Origin: Agromyces sp. SYSU T00194
GTDB lineage: Bacteria > Actinomycetota > Actinomycetes > Actinomycetales > Microbacteriaceae
DNA: 64,000 nucleotides
Assembly: GCF_040496035.1 (NCBI RefSeq)
Contig: NZ_JBEPJZ010000001.1
Location: 2,640,678-2,704,677, forward strand
Reading direction: 5' to 3'
The notes beneath the pieces were generated by a model. The model was not told where the DNA came from and did no database searches. It worked only from the letters and a program-made list of their open reading frames with translations. This document shows positions 50,160 through 59,114 of this stretch, in pieces. Position 1 is the first letter of the stretch. Each line of letters begins with the position of its first letter. Made by a program: the position numbers and the translations under genes.

Positions 50160-51467
50160 TCAGCGCAGACCGCCCGGGCCCGCGAAGGTCGCCACCAGCG
50201 CCGGCACGGCCTGCGCCGGGTGCACCTGGGTGCGCAGCACGGGCGTCCAGCCCGCGTCATCCGCGATCAGTGCGCCCGTGTCGGCGTTGTAGGCGCCCAG
50301 GAAGTCGGTGGCCACCTTGTCGAGCACGTTGCCCGACTCGGTGATCGCGGTGCCCTTGTAGACGCCGATCGCCTCCGATGCGTCGATACCCGTGAACGCG
50401 TTGTGCTCGGCGACGAGGTGGGACTCGATGCCGAGGCCCCAGCTGTAGACGTACTCGTAGTCGTCGCCGGGGGTCTCGACGTAGCTGTTGTTGTAGACGT
50501 CGACGTCGCCGTAGCGCACGCGCGGGGTGCGCTGCCCGAGGTCGCGGAACTCGTTGTGGTGCAGCGTCACGCGCAGCTTCTCCCACTCGTCGTAGCGGGT
50601 GGAGTCGGTGTTGCCGATGAGCATGACCTTGTCGTGGTCGTGGAAGAGGTTCCACGAGACGGTGACGAGGTCGGAGCCGCGCACGATGTCGAGTAGGCCG
50701 TCGTGCACCTGCAGCGGCCGGCCGAGGTACACGGGCTGCTCCGAGTCGAGGGCGTCGCCGTCGCTCAGGTCGTTGTGGTCGATCCAGACGTTGGTCGAGC
50801 CGGTCACGGTGAGCAGGTCCCACTCGGAGTTCCACTCGCCCGCATCGCCGTCGGTCGGGTCCCAGGCGGGGAAGCAGTCGTACGCGTTCGTGAGGGTCAG
50901 CCCGCGCACGATCACGTTCTGCACGTTCGCGACCTGCAGCGCCGCGCCGGTGAGCTCCGACCCGGGCAGGCCGATGATGGTCGTGTTCGAGCCGATGCGG
51001 ATGTCGATGCGCTCCTTCTGCGCGTCGCTCGACGCGTCGCGCGCGTCCTCGAGCGGGCCGTACGGCTCGTCCTCCCACCCCCATACGGCGGGGTCGTACG
51101 CGGCGAGGTAGGCGTCCAGCGTGTAGCCGTCACGCGCGTAGTCGGTGCAGGCCAGGGGAGCGCCGTCATCGTCGGTGTTGGCGTCGATCACGCCGTCGAC
51201 GTAGACGATCTTCGGTTCGTCGCCCGCCACCGCGGCGACGAGACCGGCCCGATCGGTGACGGTGACGACGTGGTCGTCGTCTGCCGCCGAGCCGCCGGTC
51301 GTGCCGTTGCCCGCGGAACCCCAGCCGTCGCCGTCGGCGAGCACGGCCCTGCCGAGGTCGTCCAGGTGCACGCGAGGGGCATCCGCCCACGCGGGGCCTG
51401 ATCCCGCGAGCAGGAGTGCGAGGCCGCTCGCGGCGGCCACGGTCGTACCGATCCAGCGTCGTTGCAT
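50160..51467 (-). CDS. Secreted pectate lyase (polysaccharide lyase family 1)
   Basis: 435 residues with a signal peptide ending near AWA/DA (residue 28). The right-handed beta-helix is recognisable from VWIDHNDLSDGD (227-238, the calcium-binding vWiDH motif), RGLTLTNAYD, IVRGSDLVTVSWNLFHDHDKVMLIG and QRTPRVRYGDVDVYNN, which contains the catalytic arginine (RxPRxR, about 313-318). It cleaves de-esterified pectin by beta-elimination outside the cell. It stands alone, convergent to pheT, with LacI-type operators upstream, which suggests control by plant sugars. Confidence 0.94.
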   Translation of the reverse strand: MQRRWIGTTVAAASGLALLLAGSGPAWADAPRVHLDDLGRAVLADGDGWGSAGNGTTGGSAADDDHVVTVTDRAGLVAAVAGDEPKIVYVDGVIDANTDDDGAPLACTDYARDGYTLDAYLAAYDPAVWGWEDEPYGPLEDARDASSDAQKERIDIRIGSNTTIIGLPGSELTGAALQVANVQNVIVRGLTLTNAYDCFPAWDPTDGDAGEWNSEWDLLTVTGSTNVWIDHNDLSDGDALDSEQPVYLGRPLQVHDGLLDIVRGSDLVTVSWNLFHDHDKVMLIGNTDSTRYDEWEKLRVTLHHNEFRDLGQRTPRVRYGDVDVYNNSYVETPGDDYEYVYSWGLGIESHLVAEHNAFTGIDASEAIGVYKGTAITESGNVLDKVATDFLGAYNADTGALIADDAGWTPVLRTQVHPAQAVPALVATFAGPGGLR

Positions 51468-51596: not shown

Positions 51597-51663
51597 CGCT
51601 GTCGAGGCGTGCGCACCCCCGGTCCACCGAGGCATCCGTTTGCCGCAGGGCCCGCGCGACCGG

Positions 51664-51669
51664 TAGGGT
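51664..51669 (+). promoter_or_regulatory. -10 box of the arginine leader
   Basis: TAGGGT, 7 nt before the GTG of the leader peptide at 51677, the same geometry as other leaderless genes here. Confidence 0.6.
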
Positions 51670-51676
51670 CGCATCC

Positions 51677-51760
51677 GTGTCCACCGCTCGCCTCGCCGCC
51701 ACGACCCGCGCATCGCGGGTGCTCGTCGCGCGCCGGCGCCGCGGTCTCCGCCGAGGCTAG
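51677..51760 (+). CDS. Arginine-rich leader peptide upstream of argC
   Basis: 27-codon frame, VSTARLAATTRASRVLVARR followed by RRGLRRG and TAG. Nine of 27 residues are Arg, with RRRR at 19-22 and RR at 25-26. It starts 7 nt after a TAGGGT box and ends 78 bp before argC, the first arginine gene. This is the layout of an amino-acid attenuator: ribosomes would slow at Arg codons when Arg-tRNA is scarce. Too small to be found by standard gene callers. The function is inferred from composition and position. Confidence 0.65.
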   Translation: MSTARLAATTRASRVLVARRRRGLRRG

Positions 51761-51832
51761 GCGACCCACCCGCAGCCCGATGCTGCCGTGCGGTCGCCGT
51801 CGCCGAACGACCTTTCGCCGAGACCATAAGGT
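51761..51832 (+). promoter_or_regulatory. Candidate arg attenuator RNA pairings
   Basis: Directly after the leader stop, GCGACC (51761-51766) can pair with GGTCGC (51792-51797). The same GGTCG can instead pair with CGACC (51808-51812), which is followed by TTT. ACCTT (51810-51814) can pair with AAGGT (51828-51832), the purine-rich site before argC. These pairings exclude each other. All stems are short (5-6 bp), apart from an internal GCAGC/GCTGC hairpin at 51772-51786. Confidence 0.45.
51827..51832 (+). promoter_or_regulatory. Possible second -10 box directly before argC
   Basis: TAAGGT lies 6 nt before the argC ATG, so argC may also be transcribed leaderless from here, bypassing the leader. 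The same bases are the candidate ribosome-binding site. Confidence 0.45.
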
Positions 51833-51838
51833 AGGACC

Positions 51839-52882
51839 ATGACGTACTCCGTCGCCGTCGCAGGCGCGTCCGGATACGCCGGGGGAGAGATCCTGCGGCT
51901 CATCGCAGATCACCCGGAACTCGAGGTGCGCACAGTGACCGCGCACCAGAACGCGGGCCAGGCGCTCACCGCCGTGCAGCCGCACCTGCGTGCGTACACG
52001 CACCTGACCCTGGCCGAGACGAGCGCCGAGACGCTCGCCGGCCACGACCTCGTCTTCCTCGCGCTGCCGCACGGCACGTCGGGTGCGATCGCCGCCGAGC
52101 TGGGCGACGCGTCGATCGTCGTCGACTGCGGCGCCGACCACCGGCTGGAGGACGCCGACGACTGGGCGGCCTTCTACGGCGGGGCGTTCCACGGCGCGTG
52201 GACCTACGGCGTGCCCGAGCTGCCCCGCCTGCACGGCACCCAGCGCGACCGCCTCGCGCAGACCCGCCGCATCGCGGCGCCGGGCTGCAACGCCAGCACC
52301 GTCGCGCTCTCGCTCGCGCCGGGCGTGCGCGCGGGCGTCATCGAGGCGCAGGACATCGTGACCGTGCTCGCGGTCGGCCCGTCGGGCGCGGGCCGCGCAC
52401 TCAAGGCGCACCTGCTCGGCAGCGAGATCCTCGGGTCGGCGAACCCCTACGCCGTCGGCGGCACGCACCGCCACATCCCCGAGATCGCGCAGGCCATGCG
52501 GTGGGCGGGCGCGGCCGACCCGACGATCAGCTTCACGCCCGTGATCGTGCCGATGTCACGCGGCATCCTCGCCACCTCCACCGCGAAGCTGGCCGATGGG
52601 GCGGATGCCGCGAGCGTGCGCGCCGCCTGGGAGGACGCCTACGCGGGGGAGACGTTCGTGCAGCTCCTGCCCGAGGGCCAGTTCCCGCGCACCGCCGACG
52701 TGCTCGGCGCCAACACGGCCCTGATGGGCCTCGCGGTCGACGAGGCGGCCGGCCGCGTCGTCGTCGTGACCGCCGTCGACAACCTCGTCAAGGGCACGGC
52801 GGGCGCCGCGATCCAGTCGGCGAACCTCGCCCTCGGCCTCCCCGAGGCCACCGCACTTCCCGTGAACGGAGTCGCACCGTGA
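51839..52882 (+). CDS. argC: N-acetyl-gamma-glutamyl-phosphate reductase
   Basis: 347-residue NADPH-dependent reductase, third step of arginine synthesis. The Rossmann loop [13 protein letters not shown] is at 9-21, and the catalytic Cys150 is in [16 protein letters not shown] and [14 protein letters not shown] are further family segments. It opens the argCJBDFH operon. The stop overlaps argJ as GTGA. Confidence 0.97.
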
Positions 52883-54030
52883 CCGTCACCGCACCCGCGG
52901 GCTTCGAGGCGGCGGGCATCGCCGCCGGCATCAAGCGCACCGGCGCCCTCGACCTCGCACTCGTCGTCAACCGCGGCCCGTCGACGGCGGCCACCGCCGT
53001 CTTCACCAGCAACCGCGCGAAGGCGAACCCGATCATCTGGTCGCAGCAGGTCGTCGCCGACGGCGCCGTGCAGGCGATCGTGCTGAACTCGGGCGGGGCG
53101 AACTGCTTCACCGGCCACCAGGGCTTCCAGGTCACCCACCGCACGGCCGAGGCCGTGGCGTCGGCGCTGGAAATCGGCGCGGGCGACGTGCTCGTCTGCT
53201 CGACCGGCCTCATCGGCGAGCAGCTCGACGGCGAGGTGCTCGAGGAGGGCGTGGTCTCGGCGGTCGCGCGCCTCACGACCGACGGCGGCGACAACGCGGC
53301 CCGCGCGATCATGACCACCGACTCGGTGTCGAAGACCGCGGTGCGCACCGGCGACGGCTGGACGATCGGCGGCATGGCCAAGGGCGCCGGCATGCTCGCG
53401 CCGGGCCTCGCGACGATGCTGGTCGTCATCACGACCGACGCGGCCGTGCACGCGCGCGACCTCGACACGGCGCTCCGCGCGGCGACGCGCGTGAGCTTCG
53501 ACCGGCTCGACTCCGACGGCTGCATGTCGACGAACGACCAGGTCACGCTGATGGCATCGGGCGCGTCGGGCGTCGCGCCCGGGGCATCCGAGTTCACCGC
53601 GGCCCTCACCGAGGTCTGCCTCGACCTCGCGATGCAGCTGCTGGCCGACGCCGAGGGCGCGAGCCACGAGATCGCCATCGAGGTGCGCGGCGCGGTCACC
53701 GAGGACGACGCGGTGACGGTCGCCCGCTCGGTCGCGCGCAACAACCTCTTCAAGGCCGCGATCTTCGGCAACGACCCGAACTGGGGCCGAGTACTCGCCG
53801 CGATCGGCACGACGGATGCCCCGTTCGACCCCTACCTCGTCGACGTGAGCATGAACGGGGTGCGCGTCTGCCACGCCGGCGGCCCCGACGCGCCGCGCGA
53901 CGACGTCGACCTGACCCCGCGCGCGACGCACGTGCTGGTCGAGTTGCACGCCGGCGAGGCCACCGCCACGGTCTGGACGAACGACCTCACCCACGACTAC
54001 GTCCACGAGAACAGCGCCTACTCGAGTTGA
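52879..54030 (+). CDS. argJ: Bifunctional ornithine acetyltransferase / N-acetylglutamate synthase
   Basis: 383-residue Ntn-fold enzyme that recycles the acetyl group between acetylornithine and glutamate. Autocleavage is expected before Thr179 in [16 protein letters not shown], producing alpha and beta chains. [10 protein letters not shown] and the C-terminal [17 protein letters not shown] are family hallmarks. GTG start by overlap with argC; the next gene begins within a few bases of its stop. Confidence 0.97.
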
Positions 54031-54032
54031 GC

Positions 54033-54938
54033 ATGAATCCTGAGAACAGTGCGGCGGATGCCGCGGAGAAGGCCCGCACCCTGATCGAGTCGCTGCCCTG
54101 GCTGCAGCGCTTCCACGACCAGGTCATCGTGGTGAAGTTCGGCGGCAACGCCATGGTCAGCCCCGAGCTGCAGCGCGCGTTCGCCGAGGACATGGTGTAC
54201 CTCCGCTACGCGGGCATCCGCCCGGTCGTCGTGCACGGCGGCGGGCCGCAGATCTCGTCGATGCTCGACCGGCTCGGCATCGACAGCGAGTTCCGCGGCG
54301 GCTACCGGGTCACGACGCCCGAGGCGATGGACGTCGTGCGCATGGTGCTGACCGGGCAGGTGAACCGCGAACTCGTGTCGCTCATCAACGAGCACGGCCC
54401 GCTCGCCGCCGGCATCTCGGGGGAGGACGCGGGCCTCTTCCGCGGCCGGCGCCGTGGCGCGGTGGTCGACGGCGTCGAGGTCGACCTCGGGCTCGTCGGC
54501 GACGTCGTCGCGGTCGATCCCGCGTCGGTGCACGCGCAGCTCGACGCCGGCCGCATCCCGGTCGTCTCGTCCATCGCGCCCGACCTCGACGAGCCCGGGC
54601 AGTCGCTGAACGTGAACGCCGACTCGGCCGCCGCGTCGCTCGCGGTCGCGCTCGGCGCGGCGAAGCTCGTGATCCTCACCGACGTCGCAGGGCTCTACCG
54701 CGACTGGCCCGACCGCGACTCGCTCGTGTCGGTCATCGACGTGCCGCAGCTGGTCGACCTGCTGCCGTCGCTCGAGTCGGGCATGATCCCGAAGATGACC
54801 GCGTGCCTCGAGGCCGTCGAGGGCGGCGTCGCGAAGGCCGCCATCATCGACGGGCGCGTGCCGCACTCCATCCTGCTCGAGGTGTTCACCCAGACCGGGG
54901 TCGGCACCGAGGTCGTGCCCGCGGAGGTGGCGTCGTGA
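54033..54938 (+). CDS. argB: Acetylglutamate kinase
   Basis: 301-residue amino acid kinase that phosphorylates N-acetylglutamate. Motifs: VVKFGGNAM near residue 33, [25 protein letters not shown] (N-acetylglutamate site) and [32 protein letters not shown]. The N-terminal helix [15 protein letters not shown] occurs in arginine-inhibited hexameric enzymes, so feedback inhibition is likely. ATG 54033 is taken; a TTG at 54027, overlapping the argJ stop as TTGA, is the alternative. Confidence 0.95.
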
Positions 54939-56110
54939 ACCCCGGGGAGCTGTTCGACCGGCGCATGATGCGCTCGCTCGGCACGCCGCTCGCGCACCTG
55001 GTCGCGGGCGACGGATGCCGCGTGCAGGGCGCCGACGGCACCTGGTACCTCGACTTCCTCGCGGGCATCGCCGTCAACGCGCTCGGCCACGCGCATCCGG
55101 TGTTCGTCGAAGCCGTCTCCCGGCAGGCCGGAACCCTCGCGCACGTCTCCAACTACTTCTCGACGCCGTCGGAGCTCGAGCTGGCCGACCGACTCGTGCG
55201 CCTCGCGGGCGCGGGGGAGTCGGGTCGCGTCTGGTTCGGCAACTCCGGCGCCGAGGCGATGGAGGCCGCGTTCAAGCTCGCCCGACTGAACCACCGCGAC
55301 CAGGGCCGCCGGAAGATCCTCGCCCTGCACGACGCCTTCCACGGCCGCACCATGGGCGCCCTCGCGCTCACGGGCAAGCCGCACATGCGGGCGCCGTTCG
55401 AGCCCGTGCCCGGCGGTGTCGACCACATCGACACCTCGATCGCCGCCCTCGAGGCATCGATCGACGAGACGGTGGCCGCGCTGTTCGTCGAGCCGATCAA
55501 GGGCGAGGCGGGCGTGCTGCCGCTGCCCCACGGCTTCCTCGAGGCGGCCCGCGAGCTCACCGCCCGTCACGGCGCGCTGCTCATCGTCGACGAGATCCAG
55601 ACCGGTGCCGGGCGCACCGGCGACTGGTTCGGCTACCAGCACGAGGGGGTCACCCCCGACGCGATCACGGTCGCCAAGGGCATCGGCGGCGGCTTCCCGA
55701 TCGGTGCGCTCGTCACGTTCGGCGCGGCATCCGGCCTCTACCAGCGCGGCATGCACGGCTCGACGTTCGGCGGCAACCCGCTCGCGACCGCCACCGCGAA
55801 CGCGGTGCTGGGCGAGATCGAGCAGGCGGGTCTCGTCGAGAACGCCCGCGTGCGCGGCGCGCAGCTGGCCGAGCGCATCCTCGCGATCAGCTCGCCGCTC
55901 GTCACCGAGGTGCGCGGCCGCGGGCTGCTCCTCGGCGTCGGCCTCGCCGAGCCGCACGCCGGCGCCCTCGCGACCGCCGCCCTGCGGGAGGGCCTCATCA
56001 TCAACGCGGCGAACGACTCGAGCATCCGCCTCGCGCCGCCCCTCATCATCGGCGACGCCGAGATCGACGAGTTCATCGAACGGTTCTCGCGCGCGCTCGC
56101 CGCACTCTGA
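54935..56110 (+). CDS. argD: Acetylornithine aminotransferase
   Basis: 391-residue PLP class III aminotransferase. The PLP lysine is Lys248 in [45 protein letters not shown] and [12 protein letters not shown] are the standard motifs. The GTG start overlaps the argB stop (GTGA). The same enzyme type can serve N-succinyl-diaminopimelate in lysine synthesis, which may matter as dapA, dapB and dapF are present. Confidence 0.96.
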
Positions 56111-56128
56111 CCTTCCCGAAAGGACGAC

Positions 56129-59114
<2,986 letters not shown>

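Follow-up and report, generated by a model that had tools for sequence, protein, structure and literature searches.

A probable ribosome-mediated arginine attenuator on a leaderless upstream reading frame before argC in Agromyces

argC is a textbook target of ArgR, and control by ArgR at the ARG box has the same target operon and the same signal as the attenuator considered here. In classical ribosome-mediated attenuators, the stop codon of the leader peptide lies near region 2, a trait that the argC leader has as well. Such attenuators are described for trp, his and leu, including trp in Corynebacterium and Streptomyces (PMC1262725), and the same survey of Actinobacteria counts arginine among the pathways without conserved RNA regulatory structures (PMC1262725). 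Leaderless, Cys-rich upstream open reading frames (uORFs) are described in mycobacteria (PMC4633059; PMC9094748, citing Canestrari 2020), and candidates also appear in PMC1262725. A search of the open-access literature gave no earlier description of a leader peptide for arginine upstream of argC, or of any arginine biosynthetic operon controlled by ribosome-mediated attenuation.

The argC operon of Agromyces sp. SYSU T00194 is preceded by a leader that, judged from comparative sequence analysis, very likely acts as a ribosome-mediated arginine attenuator on a leaderless uORF. An initial annotation of this DNA had proposed the core of such a mechanism, namely a leader of Arg codons, rival pairings chosen by the position of the ribosome, and control of argC. 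This core finds good support in conservation of the leader, placement of the Arg codons, compensatory changes in the RNA and absence of ArgR.

The argC leader and its distribution

The window (i.e. the whole analyzed stretch of 64,000 nt) contains argC on the plus strand at 51839..52882 (NCBIfam TIGR01850, 336.7 bits against a cut-off of 233.6); its nearest matches among named genomes were from Agromyces, with identities of 82-94%. On the 3′ side, argB, argD, argF and argH (54027..58509, plus strand) all scored above their NCBIfam cut-offs. The operon order is argC, (argJ), argB, argD, argF, argH, with argJ placed from the list of open reading frames alone. The sequence shared by argF and argH is a one-base overlap, and hence neither argR nor argG lies between them; argG is located elsewhere in the genome. 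The divergent neighbour on the minus strand (50160-51467) gave no NCBIfam match at 1e-10 and presumably resembles a secreted pectate-lyase-type protein.

Upstream of argC, TAGGGT (51664-51669) is followed after 7 nt by a GTG at 51677, which opens a frame of 27 codons, VSTARLAATTRASRVLVARRRRGLRRG, ending with the TAG at 51758-51760 (uORF at 51677..51760, plus strand). It contains 9 Arg codons, among them the main regulatory run RRRR at codons 19-22 (51731..51742) and a second pair, RR, at codons 25-26 (CGC CGA, 51749..51754), which overlaps region 1. GCGACC stands directly 3′ of the uORF stop, GGTCGC at 51792-51797, and CGACC at 51808-51812. The box, the gap, the frame with its Arg runs and these three motifs had all been listed in the initial annotation and were confirmed in the sequence.

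Promoter and Shine-Dalgarno (SD) elements were assigned with the generally known consensus sequences. TAGGGT (51664..51669, plus strand) is the predicted -10 element of a leaderless promoter, and a TAnnnT box precedes the uORF start at 6-7 nt in 58 of 60 Agromyces genomes, a count for which gaps of 4-9 nt were permitted. The -35 element would be TTGCCG (51640..51645, plus strand), separated from it by an 18-nt spacer. All 58 of 58 Agromyces leaders have a TTG at a fixed distance, 22-24 nt upstream of where the -10 box begins. Among loci from other genera, 31 of 64 have a TTG in the interval -26 to -15; some organisms are represented twice in these 64, as they came from both of two collections. 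The transcript is predicted to start at or beside the GTG of the uORF. Within the uORF, ahead of the Arg run, a further hairpin was noted (51705-51719, CCCGCG-CAT-CGCGGG, appearing as CACGCG..CGCGTG in relatives in alignment A1). By eye it apparently covaries within Agromyces, and it is possibly an RNA polymerase pause or start-site element.

argC was present in all 60 Agromyces genomes searched. Under a strict rule (a TAnnnT box followed after 6-7 nt by an ORF that has 8-60 codons and at least 6 Arg, sought in the 300 nt upstream of argC, counting regions of at least 290 nt), a leader was detected in 56 of 57 Agromyces upstream regions, but only in 9 of 2,280 dinucleotide shuffles and in none of the 57 reverse strands. 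For the region of the window alone, at least 9 Arg were obtained in 6 of 2,000 shuffles, and at least 9 Arg together with RRRR in none of another 2,000. The initial annotation had made its proposal depend on conservation in close relatives; with a looser rule (at least 4 Arg, gap of 4-9 nt), the leader was found in 58 of the 60 Agromyces genomes. As for the other two, one (L022) is cut by a contig end that leaves the body of the ORF visible, and one (L060) has no leader within about 400 nt and carries the most divergent argC of the Agromyces set (74%). As a natural control, the regions upstream of Agromyces argG were searched, and no Arg leader was found in 29 of them (a 30th was cut).

Among 39 argC loci from outside Agromyces, all 26 that belong neither to Leucobacter nor to another family have the leader; three of these 26 carry the name "Micrococcales bacterium". 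The search rule, into which the TAnnnT box is built both for these loci and for the further genera below, found no leader in eight Leucobacter loci (L103, L104, L105, L107, L110, L113, L117, L128), nor in the five loci that we take to lie outside Microbacteriaceae. Most Leucobacter loci display a purine-rich, SD-like stretch upstream of argC. In several of the five outside loci, a palindromic sequence, which we take to resemble an ARG box, was seen by eye across the argC start.

On a wider scale, argC was present in 285 of 299 family genomes, and a covariance model of the leader matched 135 of these 299 (47 of 85 genera) at E≤0.01, with several of the matches weaker than about 0.001 lying away from argC. 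In the order sample, 7 of 119 genomes were matched at E≤0.001, all seven being Microbacteriaceae. A total of 60 representatives of 59 further genera, which were chosen and not randomly drawn, were inspected with the rule of at least 4 Arg. A leader was found in 37 of 40 genomes positive for the covariance model and in 3 of 20 negative ones, i.e. in 40 of 59 genera. The script had counted 36 of the 40; by eye, L187 (the tail of pheT) was taken out, and L193 and L224 (gaps of 9 and 8 nt between box and start) were added. No leader was detected in 19 of the 59 sampled genera. By eye, 12 of 17 sampled genomes lacking the leader have a TAnnnT box, mostly TAGATT, at leaderless spacing just 5′ of argC; TAGATT is seen there in L165, L166, L169, L170, L174, L176, L178, L181 and L183.

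ArgR (PF02863) was found in none of the 60 Agromyces genomes and in none of the 299 Microbacteriaceae genomes (85 genera). In the order sample, by contrast, 224 of 248 genomes had it; among the 20 misses listed, of 24, 18 were Microbacteriaceae. Positive controls for PF02863 gave a match in 8 of 14 named genomes. Judged from these searches, Microbacteriaceae appear to have lost ArgR. The leader can be dispensed with, as 19 of the 59 sampled genera showed none and no family genome out of 299 yielded an ArgR.

Competing hairpins and the proposed switch

In the fold of the window, region 2 (GGCGACCCAC, 51760..51769, plus strand), which shares its first base with the end of the stop codon, pairs with region 3 (GTGCGGTCGCC, 51788..51798, plus strand) over 10 bp with one bulged base. 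This helix encloses an inner hairpin H (GCAGC/GCTGC, 51772..51786, plus strand), giving the long hairpin 2-H-3. The pairing of GCGACC with GGTCGC in the initial annotation thus exists, but it is longer than the 5-6 bp assumed there. Region 2 has invariant columns, GGCG.C in alignment A2 and GGCGA in A1. A small hairpin, 1:2, is formed by CGCC (51749-51752) and GGCG (51760-51763; hairpin at 51749..51763, plus strand), and a local hairpin below -3 kcal/mol was present in 108 of 109 loci. These 109 are the leaders used for the z, swap, hairpin and codon-position tests, from 117 unique sequences (122 entries; L187, L193 and L224 excluded), of which eight were dropped as their motifs were not placed. 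An Rfam scan of the window, T-box family included, gave no match at the gathering score.

The 2-H-3 segment had a mean z of -3.74 relative to dinucleotide shuffles, with 98% of loci below -1 (n=109), compared with -1.23 for argC coding sequence and -0.12 for the promoter. As these segments had been chosen by complementary end motifs, the test was redone without motif anchoring: a fixed interval 85-35 nt before argC gave z = -2.55 (n=117). With the 5′ anchor only, z was -3.45, and for the inner part minus both motifs it was -1.87 (n=110 each), whereas shuffles picked by the same motifs reached -0.87 (n=103). The 3′ motif was present in 110 of 110 real downstream stretches and in 103 of 550 shuffled ones. 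The last 35 nt before argC were less structured than their shuffles (z = +0.62).

Compensatory change was assessed in A2, i.e. 56 of 76 core sequences that were hand-picked, so that omission may favour the 2:3 count; the 20 left out were 13 close Agromyces relatives and seven others, some of them divergent (L093, L096, L097, L098, L106, L114, L116). In the 2:3 helix, 89.5% of cells were paired, against 87.9 ± 0.3% after shuffling. Changes on both sides were seen in four pairs (2.1 in shuffles; 17 of 500 shuffles) and in 10 cells (2.8 in shuffles; 0 of 500). The count includes one pair out of nine that is unpaired in 42 of 56 rows, and further pair types did not exceed shuffles (163 of 500). 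All slid versions of the helix had fewer paired cells, with a slightly higher covariation score for the slide by -3 (0.120 against 0.112).

When arms were swapped between dissimilar species, the cognate partner beat 0.74 of swaps for 2:3, 0.71 for H and 0.66 for 3:4, while the controls 2:4, 1:3 and 1:4 gave 0.45, 0.50 and 0.60. An RNAalifold consensus of A1 in which the Arg codons pair with region 3 was rejected, its 1:3 swap value of 0.50 being at chance level. The second pairing of the initial annotation, GGTCG with CGACC, is possible in the window, has the modest 3:4 swap value and is favoured with a ribosome at the stop, but it is not the best-supported one in relatives. Five Agromyces loci (L037, L040, L041, L042, L047) carry, by eye, one or two extra tandem copies of the region 3-4 module in the gap between uORF and argC, with repeats of the form CGACC..TTTMAGGTCG and, mostly, GTCGCCGGGAGCC-like.

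The 1:2 and 2-H-3 pairings share region 2 and overlap the end of the ORF, and are thus mutually exclusive. On the comparative data they would form a well-supported switch, with 3:4 as a weaker component. As free RNA, 2-H-3 exceeds 1:2 in stability by a wide margin (about -25 to -34 against -7 to -14 kcal/mol in the five loci listed), and consequently an OFF state would need a ribosome or folding kinetics.

The geometry of the leader is consistent with a ribosome as the switching element. Counted in codons upstream of region 2, Arg occupies codon 2 in all 109 unique leaders, codon 3 in 90, and codons 6, 7 and 8, which correspond to the main run, in 79, 86 and 97. Relative to the first base of region 2, the uORF stop is placed either 2 nt upstream (47 loci) or 10-25 nt downstream (62 loci, 56 of them at +16/+19), and a ribosome there would hence mask most or all of region 2. 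If the ribosome footprint is taken to extend 12-15 nt past the A site, a ribosome whose A site is on the last RRRR codon would mask region 1 while region 2 stays accessible.

The genome comparison shows the uORF, its Arg positions, the 1:2 and 2-H-3 pairings, the SD, the leader promoter elements and the absence of ArgR; where transcription starts, that the ribosome stalls, which way the switch works and what its output is, we infer as follows. Transcription would begin at the GTG, and a ribosome loading at the 5′ end would read the Arg-rich peptide. At low levels of Arg-tRNA, it would stall on RRRR, masking region 1, which holds the RR codons that come later, and leaving region 2 exposed; region 2 could then pair with region 3 around H, and the long hairpin would allow expression of the argC operon. 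With ample arginine, the ribosome would arrive at the stop, mask region 2 and block the long hairpin; with no ribosome, 1:2 could form first. Region 3 would then be available for pairing with region 4 close to the SD; in addition or instead, some 80 nt of C-rich RNA would stay open, and expression would fall.

Regarding the output step, no U-tract was found: within the 60 nt preceding argC, the maximum number of consecutive T per locus was 1-4 (n=109; 2 in 65 of 109), so a classical intrinsic terminator in the usual definition is absent. The sequence reaching from region 3 up to the SD (3a..SD) had a z of -0.66, weaker than that of the argC coding control, and the role of a terminator, which the initial annotation had assigned to the second pairing, found no support. 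The same stretch contains 42% C and 22% G (pooled over 109 loci), with C exceeding 1.5 times G in 97 of 109; in the window, it comprises a C-rich tail (51799..51825, plus strand) with candidate region 4 and a possible Rho-loading stretch. By its composition it would suit loading of Rho while 2-H-3 is unformed.

A purely translational output, in which a 3:4 hairpin beside the SD blocks initiation at argC and 2-H-3 relieves the block, appears rather unlikely to us. A point in its favour is that, on inspection by eye, region 4 reaches almost up to the SD in many loci. Folding with masked ribosomes also favoured 3:4 with the ribosome at the stop: pairing of region 4 was 0.36, compared with 0.22 for the stalled state, rising by more than 0.1 in 61 of 117 sequences and falling in 11, and 3:4 has the swap support given above. 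However, the modelled energy for opening the argC start was practically unchanged (mean -0.04 kcal/mol for stalled versus stop; 36 up and 51 down of 117), the 3a..SD segment was no more stable than controls, and the under-structured last 35 nt slightly lowered the chance we give to this output. Covering of AAGGT by ACCTT, as suggested in the initial annotation, is possible in the window but did not hold up, with the cognate 4:SD pair beating 0.38 of swaps. Because there is no U-tract, modelled accessibility of the SD is the same in both states and the stretch before argC is under-structured, we give Rho-dependent termination a somewhat higher chance than control at translation. The complete scenario, in which the family lost ArgR and has a leaderless Arg-codon attenuator without intrinsic terminator, whose stop-overlapping hairpin, formed upon stalling, would keep Rho off the C-rich leader, is a tentative one, to which we give slightly less than an even chance.

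Start of argC and translation of the leader

The sequence next to argC is relevant to another reading, also raised in the initial annotation: argC would have its own leaderless promoter, TAAGGT, and the uORF would belong to a minor or unrelated transcript. TAAGGT followed by 6 nt and ATG does fit the leaderless layout, and TAAGGT is the -10 box of the leader in 4 of 58 Agromyces. Likewise, argG of Agromyces (L225-L254) has a TAGGCT upstream, spaced as for a leaderless gene, in 28 of 29 loci, and TAGATT often occupies the same place before argC in genera lacking the leader. Nevertheless, none of 58 Agromyces loci and none of 50 others has a TTG in the -35 interval before the TAAGGT box. Furthermore, 14 other-genus loci (12 distinct) have lost the TAnnnT before argC but kept AAGG/GAGG, and an SD-like motif, represented in the window by AAGG (51828..51831, plus strand), was present in 58/58 Agromyces and 63/64 other loci. 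We thus regard a separate argC promoter as improbable. In view of the promoter TTG, the loss of the box and the retention of the SD, argC most likely relies on the leader transcript and an SD, and from the comparison TAAGGT before argC is best read as a Shine-Dalgarno sequence.

For an attenuator, the uORF would have to be read by ribosomes. In alignment A1, which comprises 52 of the 60 Agromyces loci (left out were L014, identical; L022, contig end; L060, without leader; and L037, L040, L041, L042 and L047, tandem duplications), all 16 gaps within the uORF were multiples of three (3, 6 or 12 nt), whereas gaps downstream had any length. The first half of the uORF counts against this evidence, as third codon positions were not the most variable there (entropy 0.97/0.88/0.80). 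The indel pattern, which is the one basis for this conclusion, suggests that the leader ORF, rich in codons for the end-product amino acid, is translated. The rare codons CGA and CGU made up 396 of 906 leader Arg codons across many genera, compared with 3 of 83 in argC, argB, argF and argH of the window; at least in part, the use of CGA may be forced by the hairpins instead of being selected for slow decoding.

The conserved reading frame would also fit a small functional Arg-rich protein, with regulation of argC being incidental, and leaderless small proteins are common in mycobacteria (PMC4633059). We consider such a protein very improbable: outside Agromyces (53 loci), the top-conserved residues were Arg (codon 2 in 53/53, codon 8 in 41/53 and codon 9 in 40/53), the third positions behave as described above, argG has no such uORF, and the hairpin at the uORF end is kept as RNA. 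Finally, the caution of the initial annotation that the frame might be a chance shadow frame, Arg-rich ORFs being frequent in high-GC intergenic DNA and the Arg codons here being CGN, can be set aside in view of the shuffle counts, the conservation across genera and the indels in threes.

Comparison with known systems

In the preferred reading, i.e. an arginine attenuator on a leaderless uORF, the argC leader resembles classical attenuators in that its peptide is rich in codons for the amino acid of the pathway and in its competing hairpins. It differs from them in that it would sense arginine, starts with a leaderless uORF and has no U-tract terminator. Lacking a U-tract, such an attenuator would provide a direct test bed for Rho-dependent versus translational output. 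ArgR, in contrast, is a repressor protein, and it was not found in the Agromyces or family samples. On the sequence data, Microbacteriaceae may represent a family-wide case in which the protein repressor is missing and a sensor made of RNA and ribosome is present instead.

Two further systems sense arginine through short reading frames. The leader of Salmonella speF contains the short ORF orf34, whose consecutive Arg codons respond to arginine and alter the structure of the downstream mRNA, with Rho being involved (PMC6386406). Its target, however, is ornithine decarboxylase and not arginine synthesis, the ORF is SD-led and belongs to a leader beginning 516 nt upstream, and it has two consecutive Arg codons plus one near the stop (PMC6386406). 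The uORF rbfL of Staphylococcus aureus likewise senses arginine with rare Arg codons. There, starvation means OFF, with the stalled ribosome obstructing the SD that follows; the target is a biofilm regulator, and the accessible part of the source describes no alternative hairpins (PMC13009471).

There are also parallels with the polycysteine ORFs of mycobacteria, which are likewise leaderless actinobacterial uORFs with a codon run near their end, located before biosynthetic genes and without an obvious intrinsic terminator (PMC1262725; PMC4633059; PMC9094748). The leaderless start predicted for the argC leader, with TAnnnT at 6-7 nt and a fixed TTG in 58/58 Agromyces, agrees with the mycobacterial Cys attenuators. 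The argC element thus points to leaderless attenuation reaching beyond cysteine in Actinobacteria. In contrast to the Cys leaders, the run consists of Arg, and ArgR is missing from the family sample. Moreover, while PMC1262725 reports no conserved terminator-capable hairpins for the mycobacterial Cys ORFs, the argC leader has a long conserved hairpin over the end of its uORF.
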